From assembly GCA_013377005.1 (NCBI GenBank), contig JACABE010000020.1:1-33374 (forward strand): a stretch of 33,374 bases of DNA, written 5' to 3'. A model generated the notes under the pieces. The model made no database searches, was not told the origin of the DNA, and was given only the letters and a program-made list of their open reading frames with translations. Of the stretch, positions 2,775 through 25,463 are shown piece after piece (position 1 is the stretch's first letter; the number at the start of each line of letters is the position of its first letter). The position numbers and the translations under genes were made by a program. Source of the DNA: Bacteroidota bacterium. GTDB lineage: Bacteria > Bacteroidota > Bacteroidia > Bacteroidales > JACABE01.

Positions 2775-2789
2775 TGATCTATTGATACG

Positions 2790-5964: not shown

Positions 5965-6020
5965 ATAATAAACATTTGGTATAAGCAGAGGTATTATCCA
6001 ACAAATACTATCAATATGTT

Positions 6021-9629: not shown

Positions 9630-9673
9630 ATTTAGTTTTATATTTTTGTAAAACAATCAACACCAGAAACTTA

Positions 9674-9709
9674 AAAAGTCTTGTAAATATTAATATTTAC
9701 AAGACTTTT
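9674..9709. terminator. perfect palindromic bidirectional terminator between the kinase and ssrA
   Basis: Positions 9674-9709 form an exact 36-base palindrome with arms starting AAAAGTCTTGTAAATAT. It has A/T runs on both ends and sits between two genes that converge, the kinase (plus) and tmRNA (minus), so one element can stop both transcripts. Confidence 0.85.
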
Positions 9710-9716
9710 ATTTGTG

Positions 9717-10084
9717 TGGAACTGCAGGGAGTCGAACCCTGGTCCAAACAAGCAGCAAAACTGCTTTCTACATGCTTAGTTTTTTATTGATTGTCGGGCA
9801 GGTTACCGGTAAAAAACCAACCTATAAATACCGTATCTCTTTTATTTCGCCTTTGCACCAGAGCCTTGCAAAAGCTATACCAACATTTATGATGCTCCGT
9901 TCAAAACGCCGTTAGTCAAAGCTTTTTGGGGAGCAAATAGCTACCTAATCCTAGATTAAGCTGCTAAAGCGTAAGAATTGTTTTCGCCGTTTATTGGCTG
10001 TGTAACTTGAGATTAACGAGTCATATTTACCACACTCGGCATGCTTACAACCCCACTTTCTTGCTGTCAAAACCGGTCAGCCCC
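9717..10084 (-). ncRNA. ssrA: tmRNA (transfer-messenger RNA)
   Basis: Read on the minus strand, the RNA begins GGGGCTGACCGG at 10084 and ends with a T-arm CAGGG-TTCGACT-CCCTG followed by CAGTTCC and a discriminator A at 9717. GGGGCTG pairs with CAGTTCC to form the tRNA-like acceptor stem. The segment GCATGCCGAG near the 5' end and CTAAGCATGTAG near the 3' end are hallmark tmRNA sequences. The internal tag reading frame ends TACGCTTTAGCAGCTTAA. The 3' CCA is not encoded (CAC follows the discriminator), so it must be added by tRNA nucleotidyltransferase. tmRNA rescues stalled ribosomes and tags the unfinished protein for proteolysis. Length is about 368 bases, in the normal range. Confidence 0.96.
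9956..9988 (-). other. tmRNA proteolysis-tag reading frame
   Basis: The frame ending at the TAA at 9956-9958 reads GENNSYALAA when started from the GGC codon at 9986-9988. The ALAA end is the universal degradation signal. The exact resume codon is inferred from the GENN-type tags known in the phylum; the upstream codons in the same frame would add PIN. Confidence 0.75.
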
Positions 10085-10098
10085 ATGAAATTGAATTG

Positions 10099-10106
10099 CA
10101 AAAGTA
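10099..10106 (-). promoter_or_regulatory. -7 promoter element of ssrA
   Basis: The minus strand reads TACTTTTG, matching TAnnTTTG, 15 bases before the mature 5' end of tmRNA. That spacing leaves a short precursor leader for RNase P to remove. No matching upstream TTG was found. Confidence 0.5.
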
Positions 10107-10200
10107 CTCATTTTTAGCATTGTTTTATAAAAATAATTCAAAATCTATTAAATATTGTTAAATGTAATTGCTAATTTTTTTATAAGAAAATAAATTCCCT

Positions 10201-10208
10201 TACATTTG
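10201..10208 (+). promoter_or_regulatory. -7 promoter element of the FKBP gene
   Basis: TACATTTG fits TAnnTTTG and lies 26 bases before the ATG at 10235. The upstream half-site is not clear. It is divergent from the ssrA promoter. Confidence 0.5.
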
Positions 10209-10234
10209 TCGAATAATTTTAAAACCTTTTAATA

Positions 10235-10948
10235 ATGAAAAAATACATTTTTTTTATTTCAGTAATGGTAGTTTTGTTTACCATAAGTGTTTCAGCTCAA
10301 AAAAACCAATCAACAAAACTTGTTTCAAACTCTGATTCAATTAGTTATTTAATTGGTGCTGATATTGGTCATAATTTAGTAAACAATTCTATTCAATTCA
10401 AATCAGAACTGCTTTTCAAAGGAATTGAAGATGCTGTTAAAAATATGGATACTCTTGTTGTAAGTAAACAAAAGAAAGACGAAGTATTGGGTAAATGGCA
10501 ACAAGAAAGAATGAAAAAACAAGAAAAAGAAAAAGCTAAAAAATCAGAAGGTCCCAAAAAAGCAGGTGCAGAATTTTTAGCTAAAAATAAAACAGCCGAA
10601 GGTGTTAAAGAATTACCAAGTGGCTTGCAATATAAAGTAATAAAAGAAGGCGTTGGCGAACATCCAAAAGCTAATGATAAAGTTAAAGTTCATTATCACG
10701 GTACTTTGATTGATGGAACTGTTTTTGATTCTTCCGTTGAAAGAGGCGAGCCTATCTCATTCGGATTAAATCAAGTAATTCCTGGTTGGACAGAAGGTGT
10801 TCAGTTAATGACCCCGGGTTCAAAATACGTTTTCTATATTCCATCTAATTTAGCTTATGGCGATAGAGAAGCAGGAAAAATACCTCCTGGATCTACTTTA
10901 ATATTTGAAGTTGAATTGTTTTCAATAGAAACTTCTACAGAAAAATAA
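10235..10948 (+). CDS. secreted FKBP-type peptidyl-prolyl cis-trans isomerase (FkpA/Mip-like)
   Basis: This 237-residue protein should fold proteins in the periplasm by isomerising prolyl bonds. A signal peptide of about 21 residues ends VSVSA before QKNQ. An FKBP N-terminal dimerisation domain (about residues 30-90, with SDSISYLIGADIG) is followed by a lysine-rich linker helix. The FKBP catalytic domain (about 130-235) shows the active-site residues in VHYHGTLIDGTVFDSS, VIPGWTEGV and LAYGDREAGKIPPGS. Length and order match the Mip/FkpA subgroup. Promoter and terminator flank it closely, so it is transcribed alone. The lack of a cysteine after the signal peptide argues against a lipoprotein. 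Confidence 0.92.
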   Translation: MKKYIFFISVMVVLFTISVSAQKNQSTKLVSNSDSISYLIGADIGHNLVNNSIQFKSELLFKGIEDAVKNMDTLVVSKQKKDEVLGKWQQERMKKQEKEKAKKSEGPKKAGAEFLAKNKTAEGVKELPSGLQYKVIKEGVGEHPKANDKVKVHYHGTLIDGTVFDSSVERGEPISFGLNQVIPGWTEGVQLMTPGSKYVFYIPSNLAYGDREAGKIPPGSTLIFEVELFSIETSTEK

Positions 10949-10977
10949 TTGTTTTTACTACACTACTACTTAAGCTT

Positions 10978-11012
10978 AAAAAGTCTCTATAAAATTATAG
11001 GGACTTTTTTTT
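10978..11012 (+). terminator. rho-independent terminator of the FKBP gene
   Basis: AAGTCTCTATAA pairs with TTATAGGGACTT (one G-T wobble) around a two-base loop, followed by a run of T. It directly abuts the next promoter element. Confidence 0.85.
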
Positions 11013-11019
11013 ATCTTTG
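11012..11019 (+). promoter_or_regulatory. -7 promoter element of thiF overlapping the preceding terminator
   Basis: TATCTTTG matches TAnnTTTG, begins inside the T-run of the upstream terminator and ends 21 bases before the thiF ATG. It covers the possible TTG start at 11017, which argues that translation starts at 11041. Confidence 0.5.
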
Positions 11020-11040
11020 CAACTTATAAAAACATACAAC

Positions 11041-11619
11041 ATGCTACTTGAATCTTTAAAAGGAAAAACAGTGGGTATTGCCGGTTGTGGTGGCTTGGGC
11101 TCCAATTGTGCCATTGCATTGGCTCGTATTGGTATAGGAAAACTTATTATTGCTGATTTTGATATAATTGTACAAAGTAATCTCAACCGTCAGTATTTTT
11201 TTATTGATCAATTGGGGATGTATAAAGTAGATGCTCTGCAAACCAATATAAAACGTGTAAATACAGATGTTATCGTTGAAAAACATTGCCTTAAGTTATC
11301 TACTGATAACATTACTCAACTTTTCAAGAATTGTGACGTTATTGTAGAAGCATTTGATTTGGCTGAAATGAAAAAAATGCTAATTGAAACAGTTCTAACT
11401 GAAATGCCTGAAAAATTTATTATTTCAGGATCTGGTATGGCTGGATGGGGAAATAACAATACAATTAAAACTATTAATTACGAAAAACTATATATCTGTG
11501 GCGATTTAACTACAGAAATCTCCGAAAATACACCTCCGCTTGCTCCAAGAGTTGGTATAGTTGCTAATATGCAGGCAAATCAGGTTGTTGAAATTTTATT
11601 AAACAAACAGAATCAATAA
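11041..11619 (+). CDS. thiF: ThiF-family sulfur-carrier adenylyltransferase (short form)
   Basis: The protein activates the C-terminal glycine of ThiS as an acyl-adenylate, the first step in loading it with sulfur. At 192 residues it is the short ThiF type. The nucleotide-binding loop GCGGLGSNC is at about residues 13-21, and the ATP-contacting DFDIIVQSNLNRQ follows. The long E. coli-type ThiF carries a C-terminal zinc-binding CxxC pair that is absent here. I chose ATG 11041 over an in-frame TTG at 11017 because that TTG lies in the promoter element and because homologues begin just before the glycine loop. thiS follows after two bases. No other thiamine genes are present, so use in another sulfur-transfer pathway remains possible. 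Confidence 0.85.
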   Translation: MLLESLKGKTVGIAGCGGLGSNCAIALARIGIGKLIIADFDIIVQSNLNRQYFFIDQLGMYKVDALQTNIKRVNTDVIVEKHCLKLSTDNITQLFKNCDVIVEAFDLAEMKKMLIETVLTEMPEKFIISGSGMAGWGNNNTIKTINYEKLYICGDLTTEISENTPPLAPRVGIVANMQANQVVEILLNKQNQ

Positions 11620-11621
11620 TA

Positions 11622-11825
11622 ATGAATATCATTCTTAATAATACACCCGAAACTATAGATGGAAAAGAAATAAGTATTGCACAATTACTTATTTTGAAAA
11701 ATTTCATATTTAAAATGCTGGTAATTAAAGTAAATGAACAAATAGTAAAAAAGCAGGATTACGAAACTACCATTGTAAAAGATGGTGATAATGTAGTTGT
11801 GTTGCATTTGGTTAGTGGAGGATAA
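11622..11825 (+). CDS. thiS: ThiS-like sulfur carrier protein
   Basis: This 67-residue beta-grasp (ubiquitin-like) protein ends in the diagnostic Gly-Gly, as VVVLHLVSGG. The terminal glycine is adenylated by ThiF and then converted to a thiocarboxylate. The VNEQIVKKQDYETTIVKDGD segment matches ThiS, where such a loop precedes the last strand. It starts two bases after the thiF stop codon, so the pair is translationally coupled. The region around residues 12-35 is slightly longer than in the commonest forms. Confidence 0.85.
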   Translation: MNIILNNTPETIDGKEISIAQLLILKNFIFKMLVIKVNEQIVKKQDYETTIVKDGDNVVVLHLVSGG

Positions 11826-11860
11826 AATTTAATTATTAATTGTTAAACAATACAATAATA

Positions 11861-11892
11861 TTGTTTTATAATCTATTTTTTATCTATTTTTG
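11861..11892 (+). promoter_or_regulatory. Bacteroidota-type promoter of the lipoprotein gene
   Basis: TTG at 11861-11863, a 21-base spacer and TATTTTTG at 11885-11892 match the phylum consensus. The ATG follows 19 bases later. Confidence 0.6.
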
Positions 11893-11911
11893 TACTCTAT
11901 TCTAAAATTTA

Positions 11912-12934
11912 ATGTTCATGTCTAAATATCTTAGCTTAATAGCAATAGCAATTTTTGCTTTATTTATTTCTGCTTGCGAAACCGATTTTAATCCAAATGC
12001 AGAATATAAAGATATTACTGTTGTGTATGGTTTGCTTAACCAAAAAGATACTTTTACCTATCTTAAGATTAACAAAGCTTTTTTGGGCAATGAAAGTGCT
12101 TATATTATGGCACAAAATGAAGATTTTAGCAGCTATGGTACTGATTTAAATGTGATAATGGAAGAAATACTAAATGGAAAAGTGGAAAAAACTTATTATT
12201 TTGACACAACTACTATTTATAACAAAGAACCCGGAATATTTTATGCACCCAAACAAGTTTTGTATAAATGCAAAACATATAACCCTGAGTTCCCTATTCA
12301 TGATTCTTTGAAAGAAGACAGAGAATACAAATTAACAATTAGAAATACAAAAACAAGCAAAATTATTAGTGCCCAAACAATGTTGGTAAATTCTTTTGAT
12401 ATAACAAATCCCAATGGAGCCACTACTATTGATTTTCCTTCAACATCTATTGGTAAGAAAAAAATAGAATGGATGTCGGCTAAAGGAGGCAAAAGATATA
12501 GTATTACTTTGCGTATTAACTATTTTGAAAGCAAAAATGGAATAGTAGATGAACCAAAATATATAGAGATTCCACTTAGCACTCAAACAAGAACAACGTA
12601 TGAAGGAGGTAGCGAAATGATTTTAGAATTTCCCGGTCTTACCTTTTATGAAACATTAAAAAATAGTTTATCGTGGTCAACAATTTCAAACCCCATTTCT
12701 CGTAAAATGGGTAAAATAGATTTTGTTGTTAGTGTAGCCGGTGATGATTTAAGCACTTATATCGAAGTAAACGAAGCTTCTAATAGTATTGTTCAGGTAC
12801 GCCCTGAATATTCAAACATTAATAATGGAATTGGTGTTTTTTCCGCCAGATTCAGCAGATATACAAACAAAATGGATTTAACTGCGAAATCTCTGGATTT
12901 TTTGCATAATCAATATCCAATGCTTGGATTTTAA
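11912..12934 (+). CDS. lipoprotein, DUF4249-like
   Basis: This is a 340-residue exported lipoprotein of unknown function. The signal sequence ends in the lipobox LFISAC, with the lipidated cysteine at residue 22. The rest is rich in beta-strand patterns and has no membrane segments. The N-terminal ITVVYGLLNQKDTFTYLKI and the C-terminal NINNGIGVFSARF resemble the DUF4249 family of Bacteroidota, which is found near outer-membrane transport systems. No TonB-dependent receptor is adjacent here. The start may also be the ATG six bases downstream (MSKYLS). Own promoter and terminator indicate a single-gene unit. The family call is from memory and moderately sure; the lipoprotein call is firm. Confidence 0.75.
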   Translation: MFMSKYLSLIAIAIFALFISACETDFNPNAEYKDITVVYGLLNQKDTFTYLKINKAFLGNESAYIMAQNEDFSSYGTDLNVIMEEILNGKVEKTYYFDTTTIYNKEPGIFYAPKQVLYKCKTYNPEFPIHDSLKEDREYKLTIRNTKTSKIISAQTMLVNSFDITNPNGATTIDFPSTSIGKKKIEWMSAKGGKRYSITLRINYFESKNGIVDEPKYIEIPLSTQTRTTYEGGSEMILEFPGLTFYETLKNSLSWSTISNPISRKMGKIDFVVSVAGDDLSTYIEVNEASNSIVQVRPEYSNINNGIGVFSARFSRYTNKMDLTAKSLDFLHNQYPMLGF

Positions 12935-12980
12935 GGAATCTAAACTATCTAATTGAAAAAATAGTTCAACTGCATTTTGA

Positions 12981-13017
12981 AAAAGACCTCAGTTTCAAAA
13001 AAAGCTGAGGCTTTTTT
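12981..13017 (+). terminator. rho-independent terminator after the lipoprotein gene
   Basis: CCTCAG pairs with CTGAGG around a 12-base loop, with flanking AAAAG and CTTTTTT extending it into a T-run. Confidence 0.8.
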
Positions 13018-13169
13018 ATGTTTTGAATTAAACAATCATAAAAAAACTCTTTAAAAGTATGTATATAAAACTTTTTGTTTAAATTTAAAAACATTTTGCT
13101 TTTTATAAATGTTTGGTTATTATTTAAACCAACGGTTTACAAAGAAAATCTATTATGAAAATAATTCCT

Positions 13170-13247: not shown

Positions 13248-15251
13248 ATGATTGGATTCGATTTAACAATTAATCTATCGTTAACAATTACGCTTTGTGC
13301 TATCATTGCTATTTTTTTTATACCATTAAAGTTGAAGTCAAATCTGGCAGCACTGACTGTTTTTGTAAATGCTGTACTTTATAGCAGGATCAGCTTGCCT
13401 GCACTTTATGGTAATGTAATAGAATACTCACTGAACACCGGAAATTTTATGGGAAATATTCCCCTCCGGATTGATGGTTTATCTGCATGGTTTATAATGA
13501 TAGTTGGCTTTACGTGCCTTACAGGCGTGATTTATGGAGGAGGATATCTGAAAACCTATAATTCAACTAAATCAGAGCTTAATTTGCACTGGATATTATT
13601 TATGTTGTTCCAGCTTTCGATGATTTGGGTTTGTATGCTACAACATGGACTGGCATTTATTATTGCGTGGGAAATCATGTCGTTATCCTCCATGATGCTG
13701 GTTATTTTTGAACATAACAATCCGAAAACTATCAAATCCGGCATCAATTATCTGGTTCAGATGCATATTAGTGTCATTTTGCTTACTATTGGTTTTATTT
13801 GGGTATATTTTCAGACAGGATCTTTTGATTTCAATGCATTCAATGTTTTTTTTAATGGTAATGCCAATATTTGGCTGTTTCTGATTTTCTTTTTAGGTTT
13901 TGGTTTCAAAGCCGGATTTATTCCTTTGCACACATGGTTGCCACATGCCCATCCTGCAGCACCATCGCATGTTTCGGGTGTAATGTCGGGAGTTATTGTA
14001 AAGATAGGGATTTATGGCATTTTCAGAATTATCTCTTTTCTGAAATCTGATTTTCTGTTACTTGGCGAAATTATTATTACCTTTTCTGTTCTTACCGGAT
14101 TGTATGGAATACTGAATGCTGCTGTTCATCGAGATTTTAAGCGGATGCTGGCTTATTGTACCATCGAAAATATCGGAATTATCGGAATCGGAATTGGAAT
14201 CGGAATGATGGGATTGGGGAATAATAATCCAATGCTTTATTATCTGGGATTTGGTGGTGCACTACTGCATGTGCTGAATCATTCATTATTCAAATCCTTG
14301 CTTTTCTATTCAGCAGGTTCGGTTTATCAGCAAACCCATACCCGTAATATGGAACGTTTGGGTGGTTTGATAAAATCCATGCCTAAAACTGCGGTTATTT
14401 TTCTGATTGGTGCTATTGCTATAGGTGGAATCCCTCCATTTAATGGCTTTGTTTCGGAATTTATAATTTACAGCGGACTATTGGAAGGTATGAAGTCAAA
14501 CAGTTTAAATCAATTAATTTTATTAATACTCAGCATTGCCGGACTTAGTGTTATCGGTGGAATTTCCATACTTGCCTTTACCAAGACTTTCGGAACCATT
14601 TTTCTTGGAACCGAACGAGAAAAATTAGCCCATAAACCTGAAGAAGTGTCTGTAAGAATGCTTTTCCCTCAATACGTTATAATAATAGTAATGATGACTG
14701 TGGCTTTCTTTCCTCAAATTTTCATGAATGCTATTGGCAATATTTTACAAAGGATGAGCATTTTACGTTCAGGATTTGAGATTGCTGGTTTTACTAATTA
14801 TTCCACAATTATCTCAAATATAAGCAGGTATTCAGCTGTATTTATTTGTATAGTTGCAATAATCTGGGGAGTTAGGACTTTTGTCATCAGAGGTAAAACA
14901 GCTGAAACAGTTCCAACCTGGGGATGTGCTTATGTTGGCTCTGTTCCTAAAGCACAATATACCGGAAAATCATTTTCAAAACCATTAGGGAAAATTTTGG
15001 GTTTCTTACTAATTGAGAAAAAGAAATATGTTGAGATAAAATCCGGTGAAATATTTCCTATAAGCAGAAAATATGCATCTAATTATCACGATTTTTTTGA
15101 GTTGTTTTTTATAAAACCTATAAGCAAACACTTAGTTTATGGGACTAATTACTTCAAATTTATACAAAACGGCAGAATACAATCTTATGTAATTTACGGA
15201 ATTGTTTTTATTATTGCTATTTTTATCATTACAGCATTAAATATAATATAA
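13248..15251 (+). CDS. hyfB: HyfB-like antiporter-type membrane subunit, copy 1
   Basis: This 667-residue polytopic protein belongs to the ND5/NuoL/MrpA superfamily and should translocate H+ or Na+ in the membrane arm of a complex I-like machine. The two charged residues of the channel are present: E142 in AWEIMSLSS and K221 in GFKAGFIPLHTWLP, followed by HAHPAAPSHVSGVMSG. The C-terminal motif VPTWGCAYVG with AQYTGKSF is typical of HyfB. It overlaps the next gene by one base (TAATG). The next gene is a close paralogue in full-length alignment, which is unusual because hyf operons normally carry one hyfB and a shorter hyfD. The operon has no NADH-input genes, so annotation as NADH dehydrogenase would be wrong. 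Confidence 0.88.
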   Translation: MIGFDLTINLSLTITLCAIIAIFFIPLKLKSNLAALTVFVNAVLYSRISLPALYGNVIEYSLNTGNFMGNIPLRIDGLSAWFIMIVGFTCLTGVIYGGGYLKTYNSTKSELNLHWILFMLFQLSMIWVCMLQHGLAFIIAWEIMSLSSMMLVIFEHNNPKTIKSGINYLVQMHISVILLTIGFIWVYFQTGSFDFNAFNVFFNGNANIWLFLIFFLGFGFKAGFIPLHTWLPHAHPAAPSHVSGVMSGVIVKIGIYGIFRIISFLKSDFLLLGEIIITFSVLTGLYGILNAAVHRDFKRMLAYCTIENIGIIGIGIGIGMMGLGNNNPMLYYLGFGGALLHVLNHSLFKSLLFYSAGSVYQQTHTRNMERLGGLIKSMPKTAVIFLIGAIAIGGIPPFNGFVSEFIIYSGLLEGMKSNSLNQLILLILSIAGLSVIGGISILAFTKTFGTIFLGTEREKLAHKPEEVSVRMLFPQYVIIIVMMTVAFFPQIFMNAIGNILQRMSILRSGFEIAGFTNYSTIISNISRYSAVFICIVAIIWGVRTFVIRGKTAETVPTWGCAYVGSVPKAQYTGKSFSKPLGKILGFLLIEKKKYVEIKSGEIFPISRKYASNYHDFFELFFIKPISKHLVYGTNYFKFIQNGRIQSYVIYGIVFIIAIFIITALNII

Positions 15252-17275
15252 TGAGAATCATAGAAGTATTTATAGTAATAGTTGTAATAGCAACGTTTCT
15301 TATCCCTTTTTTGAATGTAAAAAGGAAAGCTATCGTTGCATTTGCTGCTATATTGCTATGTGCTTTACTTTCCTCCTATTTTGCAATAAATACACTTTTG
15401 GGAAAGACTTATGAGTTCTTTCTGCCCGGTAGTTTAATTACAGGGCTTATTCCAGTTCGTATCGATAGTTTATCCGGATGGTTTATGCTGATAATAAACT
15501 TTGTATATATAACAGGCAGTTTTTACGGGATTTTTTATATGAATGCCTACAATGAGCAAAAAAATAACTTGAGTCTTCATGCAGTTGCATTAATATTTTT
15601 ACATTCAGCACTAATTAGTCTATGTGTAATTCAGAACAGTATGGTTTTCCTGATTGTCTGGGAAATGATGGCTCTTTCTTCTTTTATTTTAATAATCTTT
15701 GAACACGAAAAAACGGCAACTATCAAAGCAGGTATCAATTTTCTGATTCAATCGCATATATGTATTATCTTTCTGATGCTAGGATTTATCTGGGTTGCAA
15801 TCAAACAAAACAGTTTTGATTTTAATGCAATAACAGCTTATGCTTCCGGAAATCATGGTGTAGCAATTATACTTTTTTTATGCTTTTTTATCGGATTATC
15901 CATAAAAGCAGGATTTGTTCCATTTCATACTTGGTTGCCTTATGCACATCCGGTAGCTCCGGCACATATATCAGGGATTATGTCAGGCGTGATTATAAAA
16001 ATTGGGATTTTTGGAATCCTTCGAATGCTTTTACTGATAAAACCCGACTATACAATTGTTGGTTATATAATTCTCACCATATCTATTATTTCAGGATTAT
16101 ATGGTGTGATGCTGGCAATTATTCAGCATAATTTAAAGAAACTACTCGCCTATCATAGTATTGAAAATATCGGAATCATAGGTATTGGAATTGGAATTGG
16201 ATGTATCGGAATGGGATCAAATAATCAGGTGCTTGCTTCACTTGGATTCGCAGCTGCGTTATTGCATACTTTAAATCATGGATTGTTCAAATCATTATTG
16301 TTTTATGCTGCAGGGAATGTTTATCAGGCAACACATATACTCAATATCGAAAGTTTAGGAGGATTAGTAAAAAAAATGCCACAAACTGCTTTTTTGTTTC
16401 TAATTGCTGCCATTGCTATTTCGGGAATTCCTCCTTTCAATGGATTTGTATCAGAATTTTTAATTTACAATGGTTTATTTAGTTGGCTACATGATGCAAC
16501 TCTTGCAGCTTTAATTACCATTGTATTTTCGATTTTAGGTTTGGTACTGATTGGTGGCTTAGCATTGCTGTGCTTTACAAAAGCTTTCGGTATCGTTTTT
16601 TTGGGAAACCCACGTCATGAATTTCAACACGAGATTAAAGAAGTATCTTTATTTCAATTAATGCCGCTTTATCTGATTGCATTTTTTATTGTATTTATTG
16701 GCTTGTTTCCCATTTTATTCTTAAACCTTCTATATCATCCCATTGCTTTATTTGCAGGAACTTTAATTAATCACGAAAGTGCATTATCTTTCAATACAGT
16801 AGGAGTAATTCAACCTATCAATTGGGCAATGTGGATGCTGGTTTTATTAGTTATACTTGTATTTTCAATAAGAAAAATTGTTACCAGAAAACAAAAAGTA
16901 GTTATTGAGCCCACATGGGGATGTGCCTATGTAGGCTTTGCCCCTAAAACGCAATATACTGCCAATTCATTTATAAGACCTTATCGTAAGCTTTTTAAAC
17001 CATTTTTATTGATTTTTAAACATAAAAAGGATATTGAAGGAATCTTCCCTATCAAATCACATTATGAATCGCATTCTTACGATAAAGTTGAGAAATGGAT
17101 GATTGACTCTCCTATAAGATCTTTAAAATCGTTTATGGGTAGATTTACTTTTTTACAAAATGGAAGATTACAGTTTTATATATTATATGGCATCGTTTTC
17201 ATTGTTTCAGTGATTTGTATACCGGTGATTTATAAAACAATTATTGAATTTATTGAATTTATAAAACAATTATAA
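15251..17275 (+). CDS. hyfB: HyfB-like antiporter-type membrane subunit, copy 2
   Basis: At 674 residues this has the same architecture as the gene before it, including E138 in VWEMMALSS, K219 in SIKAGFVPFHTWLP, and the C-terminal EPTWGCAYVG with TQYTANSF. The conserved charged residues suggest a working ion channel rather than a relic. Both copies also share the GIGIGIG-type glycine segment and the NGFVSEF motif. The start ATG overlaps the previous stop by one base, and the next gene begins one base after its stop, so translation is tightly coupled. It occupies the position where hyfD is expected and may replace it, giving the complex three antiporter-like subunits with HyfF. Confidence 0.88.
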   Translation: MRIIEVFIVIVVIATFLIPFLNVKRKAIVAFAAILLCALLSSYFAINTLLGKTYEFFLPGSLITGLIPVRIDSLSGWFMLIINFVYITGSFYGIFYMNAYNEQKNNLSLHAVALIFLHSALISLCVIQNSMVFLIVWEMMALSSFILIIFEHEKTATIKAGINFLIQSHICIIFLMLGFIWVAIKQNSFDFNAITAYASGNHGVAIILFLCFFIGLSIKAGFVPFHTWLPYAHPVAPAHISGIMSGVIIKIGIFGILRMLLLIKPDYTIVGYIILTISIISGLYGVMLAIIQHNLKKLLAYHSIENIGIIGIGIGIGCIGMGSNNQVLASLGFAAALLHTLNHGLFKSLLFYAAGNVYQATHILNIESLGGLVKKMPQTAFLFLIAAIAISGIPPFNGFVSEFLIYNGLFSWLHDATLAALITIVFSILGLVLIGGLALLCFTKAFGIVFLGNPRHEFQHEIKEVSLFQLMPLYLIAFFIVFIGLFPILFLNLLYHPIALFAGTLINHESALSFNTVGVIQPINWAMWMLVLLVILVFSIRKIVTRKQKVVIEPTWGCAYVGFAPKTQYTANSFIRPYRKLFKPFLLIFKHKKDIEGIFPIKSHYESHSYDKVEKWMIDSPIRSLKSFMGRFTFLQNGRLQFYILYGIVFIVSVICIPVIYKTIIEFIEFIKQL

Positions 17276-17276
17276 T

Positions 17277-18182
17277 ATGCTGATATTTATATTAATATTA
17301 ATTGCAGCAATCTTTTTTTCGGGTATTATTATCCGAACAAAAAGTATTTTTTCAGGACGCAAAGGCCCAGGAATATTACAGCCGATTAAGGATGTAATAC
17401 GGCTTTTCAGGAAAGGATCAGTTTACAGTCAAACCACAAGTTTTGTCTTTCAAATTGCACCTACTGTCTATTTCGCTTCTGTTATTATGGCAATGCTGGT
17501 AGTCCCTTTCGGACAATACAAAGGTTTTATCAGCTTTAATGGCGATTTTATTTTCTTTGCTTATGTACTTGCTTTGGGTAAGTTTTTCAGCATTATTTCA
17601 GCAATGGATACCGGAAGTAGTTTCGAAGGTATGGGAGCAAGTCGCGAAGCACTTTATTCGATGTTAGCCGAACCTGCATTTTTTATATTGATGGGTTCTT
17701 TAGCTTTGCTTACTGGACATTTGTCGTTTCAGGAAATATTTGCAGCCCTTCACATTGGCTCTTATATTACCTATGCTCTTGCAATACTGGCAACTTTTGT
17801 TATTCTAATGATTGCCATGATTGAGAACAGCCGAATGCCTATTGATGACCCTAAAACACATCTTGAATTAACAATGATTCATGAAGTCATGATTTTGGAT
17901 AACAGTGGTTTCGATCTTGGACTTATTCTAACTACCGGTTATCTAAAATTTGCCATTTACGGTGCTTTAATTGTAAATTTATTTGTGGGTGTAATTCCAT
18001 ACGGATATACCATTCCTATGTTCTTTATTATTCAATTTCTTGTTGCTATAGCAATTGGAACTATCGAATCCTTTATGGCACGTTTTCGTATGGGACACAA
18101 TGCACAGTTTATTTTTGCTTTAACTTCAGTAAGTTTACTGATTTTTTTTGGAGCTTTATTAATTTTAGGAAAATTTATTTAA
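17277..18182 (+). CDS. hyfC: HyfC / NuoH-like membrane subunit
   Basis: This 301-residue membrane protein belongs to the NuoH/ND1 family, which links the peripheral arm to the membrane arm and lines the quinone or proton entry path. Diagnostic motifs are GRKGPGILQPIKDVIRLF near residues 25-45, MDTGSSFEGMGASREA near 105-125, and the acidic loop MIENSRMPIDDPKTHLELTMIHE. The conserved glutamates and aspartates of this loop are intact, so the coupling module appears functional. It starts one base after copy 2 of hyfB and is followed by hyfE after 21 bases. Confidence 0.9.
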   Translation: MLIFILILIAAIFFSGIIIRTKSIFSGRKGPGILQPIKDVIRLFRKGSVYSQTTSFVFQIAPTVYFASVIMAMLVVPFGQYKGFISFNGDFIFFAYVLALGKFFSIISAMDTGSSFEGMGASREALYSMLAEPAFFILMGSLALLTGHLSFQEIFAALHIGSYITYALAILATFVILMIAMIENSRMPIDDPKTHLELTMIHEVMILDNSGFDLGLILTTGYLKFAIYGALIVNLFVGVIPYGYTIPMFFIIQFLVAIAIGTIESFMARFRMGHNAQFIFALTSVSLLIFFGALLILGKFI

Positions 18183-18203
18183 TCTGCTAAAATATTTAGA
18201 AAC

Positions 18204-18836
18204 ATGATAAATGTATTGCTTATAACATTCCTTATTACACTGTTTTATATGGCTATTGCAAACAGATTGCTTACATACATTAATGTACTTGCTTTACAGG
18301 GCGTTTTGCTTTTTTTTGTTGTGTTTTTACAACTCAACGAAATAAGTACTTTAAATCTTGTGTTAATTCTTTTGGAAACCATTGTATTTAAATCTATTGC
18401 TGTACCTGTTTTTCTGGCTTACGTATTAAAACGCAATAAAATTACCCGTGAAGCCGAACCTTTTTTACCTAATTTTGTATCGTTGATTATTACAACCGTT
18501 ATTGTGGTAACGACTATACTTTTAGCTAATATAATTAAAGACACTCATTTGGATAAAATATTTTTTGTAGTAGCACTTTCCACGCTGTTTACAGGTTTAT
18601 ATTTTATTGCAACCCGAAGGAAAATCATCACTCATGTGATGGGTTATATGGTGATTGAAAACGGTGTTTTTGTTTTGTCACTTGCAGTGGGAAATGAAAT
18701 GCCAATGCTTGTTAATCTAGGTATTATGCTTGATATTTTTGCAAGTGTACTTATATTGGGTATCTTTTTGAATAAAATAGGAGATGTGTTTAAAGACATA
18801 GATGTAAATCAGTTAAGTAACTTAAAAGATTATTAA
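18204..18836 (+). CDS. hyfE: HyfE-like membrane subunit
   Basis: This 210-residue membrane protein has about six to seven hydrophobic helices. The C-terminal half resembles NuoK/MrpC, with HVMGYMVIENGVFVL and a later MLDIFASVLILG that keep the membrane glutamate and aspartate of that family. HyfE proteins combine a NuoK-like part with extra N-terminal helices, matching the length here. It lies between hyfC and hyfF with 21- and 22-base gaps, all on one transcript. Confidence 0.85.
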   Translation: MINVLLITFLITLFYMAIANRLLTYINVLALQGVLLFFVVFLQLNEISTLNLVLILLETIVFKSIAVPVFLAYVLKRNKITREAEPFLPNFVSLIITTVIVVTTILLANIIKDTHLDKIFFVVALSTLFTGLYFIATRRKIITHVMGYMVIENGVFVLSLAVGNEMPMLVNLGIMLDIFASVLILGIFLNKIGDVFKDIDVNQLSNLKDY

Positions 18837-18858
18837 TCCAACCAAATATTAAAATATA

Positions 18859-20289
18859 ATGACATTAATATATCTGATACTCGCTTTTTTAATTGCTATT
18901 TCACTTTTTGTAAATAAAAATAAAGCTATCAATGTAAGTCTCGTTTGTTTATTTGTAATTCTACAGTGGGCTTATACCATTTATGCTTGTTTCAATTTTA
19001 GAAATATTGAACTTGATTATTTTACATTCGATTCGCTGGGAATACTACTGTTGATTACCCTAAGTGTAATCAGTATTCCTGCAATGATTCATAGTTTTAT
19101 TTATATTCGTAACAATAATGAAGAAACTCCACAATCAAGAGGGATTTATTTTGCAGCCATTGTTGGATTAATTACAGCAATAAGTGCCGGCTATCTGTCT
19201 AATCATATAGCAGTTACCTGGATTTTTACCGAACTTACTACACTTTGCGCTTCTGCTCTTATCTACCATCATCGCAATAAGTTAGCATTGGAAGGAACCT
19301 GGAAGTATATTTTTATTTGTGCAATCAGTATTACTTTCATCTTTATAGGAATTTTATTTTTAAGTCTTTCATTACAACATGCAGGATCTGATGACCTTTC
19401 TTTTAAAAACTTATTATCTAATGCAGGAAATCTGAATCCATTTTGGTTGCAACTTGCTTTCTTATTTATCTTTACAGGATTTACAGCAAAGTTAGGTTTA
19501 GTTCCAATGTTTACTGCCGGAATTGATGCTAAAGACAATGCTCCAGGGCCTGCTGCAGCATTGCTTACAAGTATATTAACGAATCTGGGATTTGTTGGAG
19601 TTTTTCGTTTTTATATTGTTGTTGCAAACACACCTTTGCATCATTGGGCTAATCTGGTAATTGGAATTACAGCTGTTTTATCTGTATTTGTTTCTACAGT
19701 TTATATGATTAAAGTAAAGAATATCAAACGAATGTTTGGTTATTCAGGTATTGAACACATGGGACTGGTAATGCTCGGGCTTGCTGCGGGTGGTGTTGGA
19801 TATTATGCTGCTATTTTGCATATTGTGCTTCATGCTTTAGTGAAATCGAGTTTGTTTTTTCAATACAATCAATTATACCGAGTTTTTCAGACAAAAAGTA
19901 TTTATCATATTGGTAATTATTTTAAATACAATGCTACAGGTGCGATGGTACTTTTGTTCGGATTTATCTTTGCAACAGCCATGCCACCATCAGGTTTATT
20001 TGTTAGTGAATTTTTGATATTTAAATCATTATTTGAGGCAAATCAAATAATTGTATTAATTATCATTCTTTTGCTTTTAACAATGATAATCTGGGCATTT
20101 GGAAAAAATATGTTCAAAATTCTCTTTATTCCGGCAATAGGCTTCAATGATAAAACAGTTCCAAAAATAAGTTCTTGGGAATCTGTAACTCAAATAATTT
20201 TACTGGTAGCATCAGTTTACTTTGGATTAAATCCTCCAAAAGAATTTGTTCAACTTATTAATGAAAGTATTATGCTTTTACCAATTTAA
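18859..20289 (+). CDS. hyfF: HyfF-like antiporter-type membrane subunit
   Basis: This 476-residue protein is the third antiporter-like subunit of the complex, of NuoN/NuoM length. WIFTELTTLCASALIYHH carries the conserved membrane glutamate, and FTAKLGLVPMFTAGIDAKDNAPGPAAALLT carries the channel lysine and the HyfF-type substitution of the usual HTWLP-AHP motif; these are family-level observations. It also has the GYSGIEHMG motif that HyfF shares with MrpD. It is followed by the large-subunit gene after 12 bases. Confidence 0.85.
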   Translation: MTLIYLILAFLIAISLFVNKNKAINVSLVCLFVILQWAYTIYACFNFRNIELDYFTFDSLGILLLITLSVISIPAMIHSFIYIRNNNEETPQSRGIYFAAIVGLITAISAGYLSNHIAVTWIFTELTTLCASALIYHHRNKLALEGTWKYIFICAISITFIFIGILFLSLSLQHAGSDDLSFKNLLSNAGNLNPFWLQLAFLFIFTGFTAKLGLVPMFTAGIDAKDNAPGPAAALLTSILTNLGFVGVFRFYIVVANTPLHHWANLVIGITAVLSVFVSTVYMIKVKNIKRMFGYSGIEHMGLVMLGLAAGGVGYYAAILHIVLHALVKSSLFFQYNQLYRVFQTKSIYHIGNYFKYNATGAMVLLFGFIFATAMPPSGLFVSEFLIFKSLFEANQIIVLIIILLLLTMIIWAFGKNMFKILFIPAIGFNDKTVPKISSWESVTQIILLVASVYFGLNPPKEFVQLINESIMLLPI

Positions 20290-20301
20290 AAAGTAATAGA
20301 T

Positions 20302-21798
20302 ATGAACTATATTTCAGTTTCTAATAATCAACGCATAGATATACAACAAATTCCTGAAATAACTTATGATTTATTTTTTGAGTTAAATACAGGATTTATT
20401 ATTTCACATCCTGAGAGGCATTGTGTAAATTATTATGGATTCAAAATATCGGATAAAATCAAACTAATTTGCTGTATTGCCGATGATAATACACACGAGA
20501 TATTTATTTCTTCTTGTATTATTGGAGATTCAACCACATTAATTGCTTTTACTTCAAAACTTTTATGTTTTGAAAAATTTGAAAGAGAAATTCATGAGAA
20601 TTTTGGAATTCAATATATTGCTCATCCATGGTTAAAACCGCTTCGCTATCCTTATAATCGCTTTGATAAATCAAAAACCATTGCAAATTACCCTTTCTAT
20701 TCTATTGATAGTGAAGAATTACACGAAGTAGGCGTAGGTCCGATTCATGCAGGAGTAATTGAGCCCGGACATTTTCGCTTTATTTGTAATGGCGAGCAAA
20801 TTCTACATCTCGAAATCCAGTTAGGTTATCAACACAGAGGAATCGAACAATTATTTATTGAGAAGAAAAACCTACTTCAGAGAACTATTTTAGCAGAAAA
20901 TATAGCTGGTGATACAGTTGTGGGGCATACTACTGTATTTTCTCATATCTGGGAAAGCCTTTGCGGATTTCAATCTTCCAGAGATATTCAATTTGCACGT
21001 ACTCTGGCATTGGAAATGGAACGAATTGCTATACACACAGGTGATTTAAGTGCTGTATGTACCGATATTGCTTATCAATTAGGTAGTTCTGTATTTGGAA
21101 GACTCAGAACTCCTATTATTAATTTTATGCAGGAATGGTGTGGAAACCGTTTATCGAAAGGATTAATAAGACCAGGAAAAAATCAGTTTACATTTACCCA
21201 GAATTTGGCAAATCGATTAAATGAAGTTTTAAATACTTTTGAACCTGATTTTGATGAAATGTGCAAACAATTATTCAAATTACCCAGTGCATTATCCCGT
21301 TTTGAAAGAACAGGTGTCGTTTCATATGACGATGTATTATCAATTGGAACTGTGGGATTATCAGCCCGAATGAGTAATCTGAACAGAGATGTTCGTTTAT
21401 CGCATCCGTATAGTCTTTATAATGAATTTAATCACGAACCAATTTACAAACGACATGGTGATGTCTATTCACGAGTTCAAATCAGAAAGTTAGAAGTTAA
21501 GCAATCAATTGAATACATTCGTAAGCTGTTGGTGAACATTCCAGATTACGAAGAAAAGGCATATATGAATTCTCCAAAGCCAAATTCCTTTGCCATTTCC
21601 ATGGTTGAAGGTTGGCGTGGTGAAATTTGTCATTGTGCAATTACTGATGATAATGGTGATTTTCTGCATTATAAAGTAAAAGATCCTTCGTTTCACAATT
21701 GGATGGCATTAGCTTTATCGGTAAGAAACAATGAAATATCAGATTTCCCGATTTGCAATAAGAGTTTTAATTTATCCTATTGCGGACATGATTTGTAA
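20302..21798 (+). CDS. hyfG: hydrogenase-like large subunit lacking Ni-Fe ligands (HyfG/Ehr type)
   Basis: This 498-residue fusion has an N-terminal NuoC (30 kDa)-like domain with FEREIHENFGIQYIAHPWL and a NuoD/HyfG-like domain starting at VGVGPIHAGVIEPGHFRF. In a true [NiFe] hydrogenase two CxxC pairs bind the metal. The first should lie in a CGIC motif, but here the segment is ENIAGDTVVGH, with A202 and T205 in the cysteine positions. The second should be DPCxxC near the C-terminus, but here it is NLSYCGHD, with S492 and G495 in the cysteine positions. C494 is one residue off and alone. The protein therefore cannot hold a normal Ni-Fe centre. The GPIHAG-EPGH motif that faces the membrane quinone-like cavity is kept. 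This matches Ehr complexes, whose substrates are unknown. Confidence 0.85.
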   Translation: MNYISVSNNQRIDIQQIPEITYDLFFELNTGFIISHPERHCVNYYGFKISDKIKLICCIADDNTHEIFISSCIIGDSTTLIAFTSKLLCFEKFEREIHENFGIQYIAHPWLKPLRYPYNRFDKSKTIANYPFYSIDSEELHEVGVGPIHAGVIEPGHFRFICNGEQILHLEIQLGYQHRGIEQLFIEKKNLLQRTILAENIAGDTVVGHTTVFSHIWESLCGFQSSRDIQFARTLALEMERIAIHTGDLSAVCTDIAYQLGSSVFGRLRTPIINFMQEWCGNRLSKGLIRPGKNQFTFTQNLANRLNEVLNTFEPDFDEMCKQLFKLPSALSRFERTGVVSYDDVLSIGTVGLSARMSNLNRDVRLSHPYSLYNEFNHEPIYKRHGDVYSRVQIRKLEVKQSIEYIRKLLVNIPDYEEKAYMNSPKPNSFAISMVEGWRGEICHCAITDDNGDFLHYKVKDPSFHNWMALALSVRNNEISDFPICNKSFNLSYCGHDL

Positions 21799-21805
21799 AA
21801 TAACA

Positions 21806-21812
21806 AGGAGGT
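21806..21812 (+). promoter_or_regulatory. strong Shine-Dalgarno site before hyfI
   Basis: AGGAGGT lies five bases before the hyfI ATG at 21818. It is the only full-strength site at a gene start that I see in the window, where most genes show AT-rich leaders without one. Confidence 0.7.
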
Positions 21813-21817
21813 AAATT

Positions 21818-22564
21818 ATGATTGATAATTTAAAAATATTATATCATCAAGGAAAACAATATATTCCAGATGTAACTACAGCTAAAGTTCCGGGGATATT
21901 CAGAGGAAGACCTATAATCACTCTTAAAAAAGTGGATGAGGATAAGTTAGTTGAAGTATGTCCCTTGCAGGCAATTACTAAAAATCCGATTGCAATTGAT
22001 TTAGGCAAATGTAATTTTTGCGGTGAATGCACTATGCAATTTCCCGAAAAAATTTCTTTTACAAAAGATTATAAAATAGCCACTAACGAACGTGATAGGT
22101 TAATTATAAAAGAAGGAGATGAAAATCCAGTAGAAGTTAATCCTGCTAACGTTCGCGATGAAATTCACAATTTATTTGGCAAATCTTTAAAATTAAGGCA
22201 AATAAGTGCTGGTGGTGATAATAGTTGCGAATGGGAGCTTAATGCCAGTAACAATGTTCAGTTTGATATGAGTCGTTTTGGTATTGAATTCGTTGCTTCA
22301 CCCCGACATGCTGATGGTATTGCAATTACCGGACCTATTTCGGAAAATATGGCTGAAGCCATCCAGATTTGTTACGATGCAGTTCCTGAACCTAAAATTA
22401 TTGTACTTGTTGGAACTGATGCAATCAGTGGGGGTATTTTTGCTGATAGTTTTGCAATTGACCGAAGTTTTTTGAACAAATATCTAATTGATCTTTATAT
22501 ACCAGGAAATCCTGCACACCCGTTGACAATAATAAATGGTTTGTTGGATTTGACAAGAAAATGA
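21818..22564 (+). CDS. hyfI: ferredoxin-NuoB fusion small subunit lacking most proximal-cluster ligands (HyfH-HyfI)
   Basis: The 248-residue protein fuses a HyfH-like ferredoxin domain (about 1-90) to a HyfI/NuoB-like small subunit (about 120-248). In the ferredoxin part only C48 (in VCPLQAI) and C65, C68, C71 (in CNFCGEC) remain, enough for one [4Fe-4S] cluster; the other cluster's ligands are gone. In the small subunit the four proximal-cluster positions read D134 and C137 (GGDNSCE, normally GGCNGCE), D201 (GTDAISGG, normally a cysteine) and N231 (IPGNPAHP, normally IPGCPP). Only one of four cysteines survives. The surrounding fold motifs RFGIEFVASPRHADGIAITGP and SGGIF are well kept, so the loss looks selective rather than decay. 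It is the last gene of the operon; no terminator is visible after it. Confidence 0.85.
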   Translation: MIDNLKILYHQGKQYIPDVTTAKVPGIFRGRPIITLKKVDEDKLVEVCPLQAITKNPIAIDLGKCNFCGECTMQFPEKISFTKDYKIATNERDRLIIKEGDENPVEVNPANVRDEIHNLFGKSLKLRQISAGGDNSCEWELNASNNVQFDMSRFGIEFVASPRHADGIAITGPISENMAEAIQICYDAVPEPKIIVLVGTDAISGGIFADSFAIDRSFLNKYLIDLYIPGNPAHPLTIINGLLDLTRK

Positions 22565-22649: not shown

Positions 22650-22680
22650 TTTGTTATATAAAAAATAAATACTAATTTTG
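22650..22680 (+). promoter_or_regulatory. promoter of the rplM ribosomal operon
   Basis: TTTG at 22650-22653, a 19-base spacer and TAATTTTG at 22673-22680 give a textbook Bacteroidota promoter. The TSS would be near 22685, about 50 bases before the rplM ATG. Confidence 0.75.
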
Positions 22681-22734
22681 CACTCCCTTTTTAAAAAAGG
22701 TATAGTAGCGAAAAAGAAATATTTAAACAAACAA

Positions 22735-23190
22735 ATGGATACATTAAGTTATAAAACAGTATCAGCAAACAAGGAAACCGTAATAAAAGAGTGGATTCTG
22801 ATAGATGCTGAAAATGAAGTTTTGGGGCGATTGGCATCAAAAGTTGCCAATGTTTTAAGAGGCAAAAACAAACCCAGCTTTACACCTCATGTTGACTGTG
22901 GTGATAATGTAGTAATCGTGAATGCAGAAAAAATTAAATTGACCGGCAACAAAATGAACGATAAAGTTTATGTTCGCCACACTGGTTACCCAGGGGGTCA
23001 ACGTTTTGCATCTCCTAAAGAACTACTTGCCCGTAAACCAATTTCGGTAATTGAAAAGGCGGTAAAAGGCATGTTACCTAAAAATACGTTGGGTAGCACA
23101 CTTTTTAGAAATTTACATGTTTATGCAGGAGCAGAACATCCTCATCAAGCACAATCTCCAAAAGTAACCAAATTAAATACATTAAAGTAA
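22735..23190 (+). CDS. rplM: 50S ribosomal protein L13
   Basis: This 151-residue protein is an early-assembly component of the large ribosomal subunit that binds 23S rRNA. Family motifs include [40 protein letters not shown] and [10 protein letters not shown] chose the ATG at 22735; a longer frame from a TTG at 22678 would start inside the promoter -7 element and add 19 residues not found in L13. The gene is followed after one base by rpsI, the usual bacterial pairing. Confidence 0.97.
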
Positions 23191-23191
23191 C

Positions 23192-23578
23192 ATGGAAATT
23201 ATCAATACAATAGGAAGAAGGAAGACTGCTGTTGCACGTATTTATATGAAACCAGGAAGTGGAATAATAACTATCAATGATAGAGATTATAAAGAATATT
23301 TCAATACCGGTACATTACAATATATCGTAACTCAACCATTTGAAGTTTTAGGAAATCAAGGAAGTTTTGATATTAAAGCAAATCTCGACGGTGGTGGTAT
23401 TACCGGACAGGCAGAAGCCATCCGTTTAGCTATTTCCCGTGCTTTATGCGTTTTTGATGCGGAAAACCGTCCACCGCTAAAAGCAAAAGGATTAATGAAA
23501 AGAGATCCAAGAATGGTAGAGCGTAAAAAACCAGGTCAGAAAAAAGCCCGTAAAAAATTCCAATTCAGTAAACGTTAA
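23192..23578 (+). CDS. rpsI: 30S ribosomal protein S9
   Basis: This 128-residue protein binds the 3' domain of 16S rRNA, and its C-terminal tail reaches the P-site tRNA. Motifs are IGRRKTAVARIYMKPGSG at the N-terminus, GGGITGQAEAIRLAISRAL in the middle, and the basic tail KKPGQKKARKKFQFSKR, which ends with the conserved SKR. It follows rplM by a single base and is co-transcribed with it. Confidence 0.97.
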   Translation: MEIINTIGRRKTAVARIYMKPGSGIITINDRDYKEYFNTGTLQYIVTQPFEVLGNQGSFDIKANLDGGGITGQAEAIRLAISRALCVFDAENRPPLKAKGLMKRDPRMVERKKPGQKKARKKFQFSKR

Positions 23579-23606
23579 GACTTGTATAGAACAGTTTAGT
23601 ATCTAA

Positions 23607-23642
23607 ATTATCAAGACTCCTTTAAAAGGGCTACTTGATAAT
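23607..23642 (+). promoter_or_regulatory. leader hairpin upstream of rpsB
   Basis: ATTATCAAG (23607-23615) pairs exactly with CTTGATAAT (23634-23642), and an inner CCTT/AAGG stem can stack on it. No T-run follows, so it is not a standard terminator. Its place between rpsI and rpsB suggests a control or processing structure, for example S2 feedback; that role is inference. Confidence 0.5.
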
Positions 23643-23679
23643 TGTCTTTAGTGAATGTAAACAATAAAAAATTAATTAA

Positions 23680-24609
23680 ATGTCAAGAACAAATTTCGAT
23701 CAATTATTAGATGCAGGTGTTCATTTTGGCCACCTTAAAAGAAAATGGAATCCTAAAATGGCTCCTTATATTTTTATGGAACGCAATGGAATCCACATCA
23801 TCGATTTACATAAAACCGTAGCAAAAGTTGATGAAGCTGCTTCAGCTTTAAAACAAATTGCAAAATCGGGTAAAAAAATACTTTTTGTTGCAACTAAAAA
23901 GCAAGCAAAAGAAATCGTTGCAGAACAGGTAAAAAGAGTAAATATGCCTTACGTAACTGAACGTTGGCCAGGTGGTATGTTAACCAATTTTGCTACTATC
24001 CGCAAAGCTGTTAAAAAAATGTCTTCAATAGACAGATTAATGACAGACAAATCTTTTACAGATATTTCAAAAAGAGAAAGGCTTCAAATTAGTCGTGAAA
24101 GAGCTAAACTAGAAAAAAACTTAGGTAGTATTTCTGATTTAAATCGTTTACCATCTGCTATTTTTATCATCGATATCAATAAAGAACACATTGCTGTTGC
24201 CGAAGCCAAAAGATTAAACATTCCTACTTTTGCAATGGTTGATACTAATACTAACCCAGATTTAATCGATTTTCCAATTCCAGCCAATGATGATGCATCA
24301 AAATCTATCAACGTTATTTTGGAAGCTATCGTTAACGCGATTGAAGAAGGATTAAATGAAAGAAAATTTGATAAAGATAAAAAAGCTTCTGATGAAGCTG
24401 ATGATTCTGAAGATTCTTTTGATACAACTACTGAAATTCGTTCATTAGCTGATGTTGATGAAGACGAAAGCGCAGCTGAAGCTAAAAGAAATCTGGCTAA
24501 AAAGATGAAAGAAGAAGAAAGCCTTGCAATGGGTGGTGATCCAACCAAGAGACCACGCAAACCAATTGCAAAGCCAACAACTTTAAAGAAAAAACCAACA
24601 ACTAAATAA
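23680..24609 (+). CDS. rpsB: 30S ribosomal protein S2 with a long C-terminal extension
   Basis: The core S2 domain (about residues 1-230) binds the back of the small subunit. It carries the family motifs LLDAGVHFGHLKRKWNPKM, IHIIDLHKT, FVATKKQA and RWPGGMLTNF, plus the late FAMVDTNTNPDLIDFPIPANDDA. The total of 309 residues exceeds the usual 230-250. The last 75 or so residues form an extension that is first acidic (DEADDSEDSFD) and then basic and proline-rich (DPTKRPRKPIAKPTTLKKKP). It would be disordered and might contact rRNA or mRNA near the platform; this is inference. It is followed by tsf after 29 bases. Confidence 0.96.
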   Translation: MSRTNFDQLLDAGVHFGHLKRKWNPKMAPYIFMERNGIHIIDLHKTVAKVDEAASALKQIAKSGKKILFVATKKQAKEIVAEQVKRVNMPYVTERWPGGMLTNFATIRKAVKKMSSIDRLMTDKSFTDISKRERLQISRERAKLEKNLGSISDLNRLPSAIFIIDINKEHIAVAEAKRLNIPTFAMVDTNTNPDLIDFPIPANDDASKSINVILEAIVNAIEEGLNERKFDKDKKASDEADDSEDSFDTTTEIRSLADVDEDESAAEAKRNLAKKMKEEESLAMGGDPTKRPRKPIAKPTTLKKKPTTK

Positions 24610-24638
24610 ATTTTAAAACCTTTATAACTCATTATAAA

Positions 24639-25463
24639 ATGGCTATTACTGCAGCAGAAGTAAACAAACTAAGACAAATGACAGGTGCAGGCATGATGGA
24701 TTGCAAAAACGCACTTGTAGAAAATGACGGTGATTTTGACAAAGCTATTGATTTCCTTAGAAAAAAAGGACAGAAATTAGCCAGCAAAAGAGCTGACAGA
24801 GATGCAAATGAAGGAGTTGTTATTGCTAAAACCAATGCAGATAAGACCTTTGCAGCTACAATCATGATTAACTGTGAAACTGATTTTGTTGCTAAAACTG
24901 ATTTATTCATAAACTTTTGTAAATCTGTATTGGATTTGGCAATTGAAAAAATGCCAAAATCTGAAGATGAATTAAAAGCTATGCAACTAGAAGGTGTTTC
25001 TATTGCTGATTTACTTATTGAACAAACAGGGAAAACCGGTGAAAAAGTTGAATTAGCTCATTATAACTTTATCGAAGCTCCTATGAACTTTGCATACAAT
25101 CATCAAGGTTCACGTTTGGCTACCATAGTTGGCTTCAACAAAACCTGTGACGAAGTATTAGGTAAAGATATTGCAATGCAAATAGCTTCAATGGCACCAG
25201 TTGCTATTGATAAAGAGAGTGTTTCAGCAGAAACTATTGAAAAAGAACTTGAAATCTACAGAGATTTGATTCGTCAAGAAGGCAAACCTGAAAATATGGT
25301 TGAACAAATTGCACAAGGAAAATTAAATAAATTTTTCAAAGACAGCACCTTATTAAATCAGGATTTTATCAAAGAAGGTAAAAAAAGTGTAGAACAACAT
25401 ATCAAAGAAATTGATAAAGATTTAAAAGTTACTGCATTCATCAGATTAATGTTAGGTGCATAA
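24639..25463 (+). CDS. tsf: elongation factor Ts
   Basis: This 274-residue protein is the nucleotide exchange factor that releases GDP from EF-Tu. The N-terminal UBA-like domain reads VNKLRQMTGAGMMDCKNAL, and the conserved core motif NCETDFVAKTDLF that contacts EF-Tu follows. Length is normal. It closes the rplM-rpsI-rpsB-tsf group and is followed by a strong terminator. Confidence 0.97.
   Translation: MAITAAEVNKLRQMTGAGMMDCKNALVENDGDFDKAIDFLRKKGQKLASKRADRDANEGVVIAKTNADKTFAATIMINCETDFVAKTDLFINFCKSVLDLAIEKMPKSEDELKAMQLEGVSIADLLIEQTGKTGEKVELAHYNFIEAPMNFAYNHQGSRLATIVGFNKTCDEVLGKDIAMQIASMAPVAIDKESVSAETIEKELEIYRDLIRQEGKPENMVEQIAQGKLNKFFKDSTLLNQDFIKEGKKSVEQHIKEIDKDLKVTAFIRLMLGA

Follow-up and report, generated by a model that had tools for sequence, protein, structure and literature searches.

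The window, that is, the whole stretch of 33,374 nucleotides analysed here, contains an operon of seven genes, A1-A2-B-C-D-L-S, at positions 13248-22564 of the forward strand. A1 (13248..15251, 667 aa) and A2 (15251..17275, 674 aa) encode HyfB/NuoL-type antiporter-like membrane subunits, with Proton_antipo_M matches of 1.1e-53 and 1.8e-53, respectively; the top NCBIfam model for A1 was hydrogenase 4 subunit B, under its cut-off. B (17277..18182, 301 aa) encodes a NuoH/HyfC-type membrane anchor (NADHdh, 4.5e-36), and C (18204..18836, 210 aa) encodes a HyfE/NuoK-type membrane subunit, which matched Oxidored_q2 at 1.6e-05, barely under the Pfam cut-off, and the NCBIfam hydrogenase 4 membrane subunit at 5.9e-19, also under the cut-off. 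D (18859..20289, 476 aa) encodes a HyfF/NuoN-type antiporter-like subunit (Proton_antipo_M, 3.7e-37). These are followed by L (20302..21798, 498 aa; Complex1_49kDa, 4.7e-35), a HycE/NuoCD-like large subunit without [NiFe] ligands, and by the last gene, S (21818..22564, 248 aa), a ferredoxin-fused small subunit of the NuoB/HyfI type. Pfam and NCBIfam revealed no NADH-oxidising module among the seven genes. Downstream of the operon (22678-25463) lie the genes of ribosomal protein L13, ribosomal protein S2, and elongation factor Ts. The order A-B-C-D-L-S was common to the relatives whose loci were of sufficient length, with one or two A genes; the tandem HyfB-type pair (13248-17275) was shared by the nearest relatives, and many others had one A. 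Given this tandem pair, the lineage of the window may have a larger membrane arm. The genome contains two more Oxidored_q6 genes with scores above that of S, and no match to PF00374 at E 0.001.

Residues 136-244 of S matched Oxidored_q6 (Pfam, 1.5e-19), and approximately residues 56-99 gave weak NuoI-type NCBIfam matches, every one under its cut-off. According to the sequence-only reading, D134, D201, and N231 stand in for three of the proximal cluster's four cysteines. When S was aligned by phmmer with MbhJ of P. furiosus (6cfw_J) and HycG of E. coli (7z0s_G), the motifs GGD134NSC137EWEL, GTD201AISGG, and PGN231PAHP ran gap-free against the cysteine motifs. The AlphaFold2 model of S (mean pLDDT 93.4) superposed on HycG 7z0t_G over 136 residues with a Z of 15.4 and an rmsd of 1.7 Å, in the same register, confirming the placement. 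The codons of the first, third, and fourth positions, D134, D201, and N231, are at 22217..22219, 22418..22420, and 22508..22510, respectively, and that of C137, the sole proximal-cluster cysteine left, is at 22226..22228. S has six cysteines in all (48, 65, 68, 71, 137, and 185). The ferredoxin ligands proposed earlier for one cluster, C48 (21959..21961) and C65, C68, and C71 of a CxxCxxC motif (22010..22030), were present in all 145 homologues described below. By the NuoI assignment, we take this set to be that of the N6b-type cluster, which adjoins N2, with the N6a-type set absent.

Homologues were collected from 59 relatives, from 395 genomes of the phylum, 198 of a second phylum, 23 of one family, and 246 of the order, and from a named genome collection of which the best 80 of 540 confirmed matches were taken, so that close relatives are over-represented. 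In the order-level search, 56 of the 246 genomes, the window's own counted in, gave a match with an E value no higher than 1e-28. The strict set (E up to 1e-40, at least 235 aa; locus L017 was thereby left out) comprised 145 distinct proteins. We defined a DxDN group by D or E at position 201 together with N or H at 231. To this group belonged 102 proteins; the other 43 had cysteine at all four positions (four-Cys), and none was intermediate. Position 134 was D in 99 DxDN proteins and G, A, or E in one each. D at 201 and N at 231 were each found in 101 of the 102, which partly follows from the group definition, whereas the empty intermediate class owes nothing to it. Among the best 80 of the 540 matches, DxDN members were by label mostly Bacteroidota, with bins marked Spirochaetes and Planctomycetes, and some were cultured (Chryseolinea serpens and two Arcticibacter). 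C137 was retained in 79 DxDN proteins and lost in 23, requiring 8 changes on a tree of 40 DxDN rows. The earlier statement that only C137 remains is right for the window protein, but C137 is not a conserved ligand. Because C137 varies, a four-ligand [4Fe-4S] cluster in every member is disfavoured.

In 14 close pairs, each at least 84% identical, dN/dS was 0.035-0.115, indicating purifying selection. Identity to the S of the window reached down to 54% in DxDN proteins and up to 57% in four-Cys proteins (single BLAST segment), so that the ranges overlap. Four-Cys forms in close relatives had been named as a possible sign of decay: none exceeded 57% identity, but DxDN members were as distant as 54%, and one four-Cys locus (L207) belonged to the window's own order. 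The 102 DxDN proteins, the lack of partial states, and the low dN/dS exclude sequencing error or recent decay of D/D/N. Judged from these sequences, the D/D/N small subunit is a real, selected, and widespread variant, which bears out part of the earlier interpretation.

To see how the DxDN forms differ from others, we compared 92 DxDN, 4 transitional, and 34 four-Cys rows, with L207 left out. The transitional members (L022 and L191-L193, one family) kept every N2 and ferredoxin cysteine, and their large subunits had H40, W279, N282, and K286 as in the DxDN group. D134, D201, and N231 were the only residues of S present in at least 93% of DxDN rows and absent from transitional and four-Cys rows; therefore, the remainder of S needed no change. 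At P57 and A179 of S and E96, Q173, and K458 of L, DxDN rows differed from the transitional rows only. In L089 and L097, the acidic residue was shifted from 134 to 137, and L017, unrelated to the main DxDN group, had D/C/D/D at the four ligand positions, as if acidic residues were favoured in the pocket. The D/C/D/D small subunit of L017/L140 has no fused ferredoxin and a different gene order, which marks it as a separate loss of the proximal-cluster ligands.

The large subunit L matched HycE at 9.5e-35 (phmmer) and had A202, T205, S492, and G495 at the HycE [NiFe] ligand positions. Across 117 family rows, at most one of the four ligands was kept, with C at 202 in 7 rows. An identity as a [NiFe] hydrogenase was ruled out by the absence of the four-cysteine ligand set from L. 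At the positions of H38 and Y87 of Nqo4, L has I153 and G203. C443 and H444 (codons at 21628..21633) were counted in 75 DxDN, 4 transitional, and 34 four-Cys rows, L207 being left out. H444 was found in all 75 DxDN rows and C443 in 70, and C443 was absent from all transitional and all four-Cys rows. The region presumably corresponds to that of the histidine of [NiFe] hydrogenases near the proximal cluster, and we assume that C443 and H444 face the D/D/N pocket. Yet C443 also occurred in L207 and in the outlying four-Cys L188 and L189, which weakens its tie to the empty pocket. C137 and C443 were associated (Fisher p 0.011, kinship ignored), and the 6 supported independent pairs, none of them opposed, are too few to establish the pairing.

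The membrane arm kept its charged residues at the channel and the interface. In DxDN rows, E142, K221, and K252 of A1 had a conservation of 1.00 and E404 of 0.98; the values were 1.00 for E183, R186, D190, D191, E197, and E203 of B and for E125, K211, and E384 of D. E138, K219, K250, and E402 of A2 and the loop PIDDPKTHLELTMIHE of B were likewise conserved. The channel residues expected of the ion-translocating complex I superfamily are thus present in the antiporter-like subunits. Since the ion-channel part is intact while the cluster cysteines are replaced, these D/D/N relatives of complex I may shift ions without the usual electron delivery.

The small-subunit tree comprised 77 rows out of 141 after thinning at 74% identity; trait columns were in, and the fragments L016, L018, L020, L114, L122, L154, L169, and L173 were dropped. 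In one further row set, 24 rows were set aside, and of rows with the same last 120 residues a single one was kept. In the tree, 46 DxDN rows formed one clade (99/93) within the four-Cys forms, and L017 stood apart. Three DxDN members (L113, L117, and L124) still had an eight-cysteine ferredoxin; therefore, the N2-type ligands were probably lost before the N6a-type ligands. The latter were also gone, fully or partly, in several four-Cys rows. A DxDN-type large subunit was paired with a four-cysteine small subunit in five cases, the four transitional members and the mosaic L207. L207 (3-1932), from the window's order, combines a four-Cys, eight-cysteine small subunit, placed outside the DxDN group, with a DxDN-type large subunit carrying C443, placed inside it. 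This looks like gene replacement and not like recent decay of the other members.

The large-subunit tree placed the four-Cys L130 inside DxDN, and so did a joint tree without trait columns, for which the AU test did not reject a single DxDN clade (p 0.316). When L207 and the four transitional rows were added (38 chosen rows), the large-subunit data rejected one DxDN clade (p 0.004). The small-subunit data for the 38 chosen rows, trait columns taken out, did not reject it (p 0.794), and there the constrained tree was better than the free one. A single origin of the DxDN small subunit, followed by exchange of small-subunit genes, best explains these results, which fall short of proof. Repeated loss of the proximal-cluster ligands across DxDN lineages is a possible alternative.

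By its subunits and its missing ligands, the complex of the window is classed as an Ehr complex. Sections of published accounts describe Ehr as having hydrogenase-like subunits and antiporter-like membrane subunits and as lacking the [NiFe] ligands (PMC6349859, PMC10284858, PMC7304191). The operon has the same composition, with large and small subunits like those of group 4 hydrogenases, antiporter-like membrane subunits, and an L that has lost the [NiFe] ligands. The sections cited name the [NiFe] ligands only, whereas the window complex is also without the N2-type and N6a-type ligands. Among solved structures, S and L matched formate hydrogenlyase/hydrogenase-4 best (HycG, HycE, Hyf), and the membrane arm is of the Hyf type; the window complex differs in the missing [NiFe] ligands, in the loss of the proximal cysteines save C137, and in the one-cluster ferredoxin fused to S. 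Unlike group 4 [NiFe] hydrogenases, L has no set of four cysteine ligands. With complex I (NuoB/NuoD), the window complex shares the fold and the membrane-arm residues, but S lacks the four N2 cysteine ligands of NuoB, the equivalents of Nqo4 H38 and Y87 are missing, and the operon has no NADH module. The MBS sulfur reductase of Pyrococcus has an altered proximal cluster held by three cysteines (PMC7684303); here at most one cysteine is left. Single natural Cys-to-Asp and Cys-to-Asn replacements at the proximal cluster are listed for two-subunit [NiFe] hydrogenases in Table 1 of PMC4070099. In that table one position is replaced, and in S three are replaced together. We found no account of proximal-cluster loss in Ehr in the literature searched, and an earlier description is possible.

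Our preferred reading, which we hold tentatively and at somewhat less than an even chance, is that the DxDN complex is an Ehr complex that still moves ions without electron supply to the cavity, the acidic pocket substituting for the charge of the cluster. From the cluster distances of complex I structures, we infer that the electron route to the cavity is broken. Electrons of the single remaining cluster would reach the large-subunit cavity too slowly for turnover, and the complex would have ceased to be a conventional redox pump. Owing to the D/D/N pocket, the site would stay folded and have a fixed negative charge where the cluster used to be, and this would hold the S/L interface in a working state. 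The membrane arm would still move ions, powered either by a gradient already in place or by some non-redox event in the cavity, and the last ferredoxin cluster would serve for sensing, gating, or mere stabilising. The selection on the D/D/N pattern, the retention in DxDN rows of charged positions in the membrane arm and at the interface, the restriction of DxDN-specific changes in S to D134, D201, and N231, the shifted acid in L089/L097, and the D/C/D/D of L017 are consistent with this reading. The DAB2 system of vectorial CO2 hydration is a precedent for a NuoL-like channel subunit tied to non-redox chemistry (PMC13144422); it differs in that the genome of the window is without DabA. However, the invariant ferredoxin motif (145/145) suggests that redox still counts. 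DxDN-type large subunits also occur with fully clustered small subunits (L207 and the transitional members), so that the mechanism shows no sign of having changed wholesale. One report regards the Ehr of Geobacter as nonfunctional (PMC13194489), a view that tells against ion movement and would suit a relic, for which the loss of the ligands of two clusters also speaks. A decaying or non-functional relic is nonetheless highly improbable, considering the low dN/dS in 14 pairs, the 102 DxDN proteins with no partial states, and the conserved operon and channel residues.

A new metal site would also account for the pocket, with D134, D201, and N231, together with C137 if present and perhaps C443/H444, binding a metal ion or an atypical cluster that takes over from N2 the role of relay or catalytic centre. 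We consider this the main rival, less likely than the preferred reading. Acidic residues are kept, even if moved to 137, and C443 separates 70/75 DxDN rows from 0/38 close four-Cys and transitional rows. Asp and Asn are found at individual hydrogenase cluster positions, where both can be tolerated and Asp is tolerated best (PMC4070099); in the same source, the multiply substituted hydrogenases (medial and distal clusters) were all inactive among those tested. An Fe-S cluster would have to do without a common thiolate, as C137 was lost about 8 times. C443 accompanies intact four-Cys small subunits in L188, L189, and L207, and the link between C137 and C443 is only tentative once the tree is taken into account. 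L207 slightly lowers the odds of both the metal site and the ion-moving Ehr. Another exit for electrons, by which the remaining cluster would trade them at some other place with a partner, soluble or in the membrane, and bypass N2, seems to us rather improbable. The ferredoxin cysteines of all 145 homologues fit it, as does the loss of N6a-type ligands in several four-Cys members, which implies that the remaining cluster can be an entry point. Against it, no recurrent redox partner gene stood beside the DxDN operons among the clusters listed, a flavin/FlpD-type gene lying 3' of the operon in L104 alone.

How the redox state of N2 shifts charge in the distant membrane arm is a central open question of complex I. 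Natural members of the present family form a series that shares one kind of membrane arm, from all clusters present, through forms with the N2-type ligands gone and two ferredoxin motifs, to forms with one motif. Comparing the members of this series could separate a drive by electrostatics or conformation from electron transfer proper. It would also open a way into Ehr complexes, for which the function is given as unknown (PMC10284858).

Of 185 locus entries with enough sequence past S, 10 had a SulP gene (PF00916 in the proteins tested) on the strand of S that started at most 700 nt 3' of it. These are nine places, L022 and L130 being one: the four transitional members (L022/L130, L191-L193) and DxDN L097, L099, L109, L112, and L124. 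PF00916 was present in 12 of 16 genomes searched and had no match in those of L105, L113, and L117; the genome of the window matched neither PF00916 nor PF10070. DabA was found in 2 of 8 genomes searched. As SulP and DabA are missing from the window's and other genomes, inorganic carbon or anion transport was rejected as the general function, and it serves as a lead for some family members only. Near the Ehr operon of L089 (12917-20640), a DabA gene has a SulP gene and an antiporter-like gene close to it.

Two further arrangements were observed. Near the operon of L136, a gene of approximately 220 aa (3034-3708) encodes HTH and PTS_EIIA_2 domains; BLAST located this type of gene near 18 other four-Cys loci and beside none of the DxDN operons compared. 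L104, labelled Brocadiaceae, has a second, partial set of A, L, and S (21-13148) 5' of its DxDN operon and the flavin/FlpD/ferredoxin gene on the 3' side.
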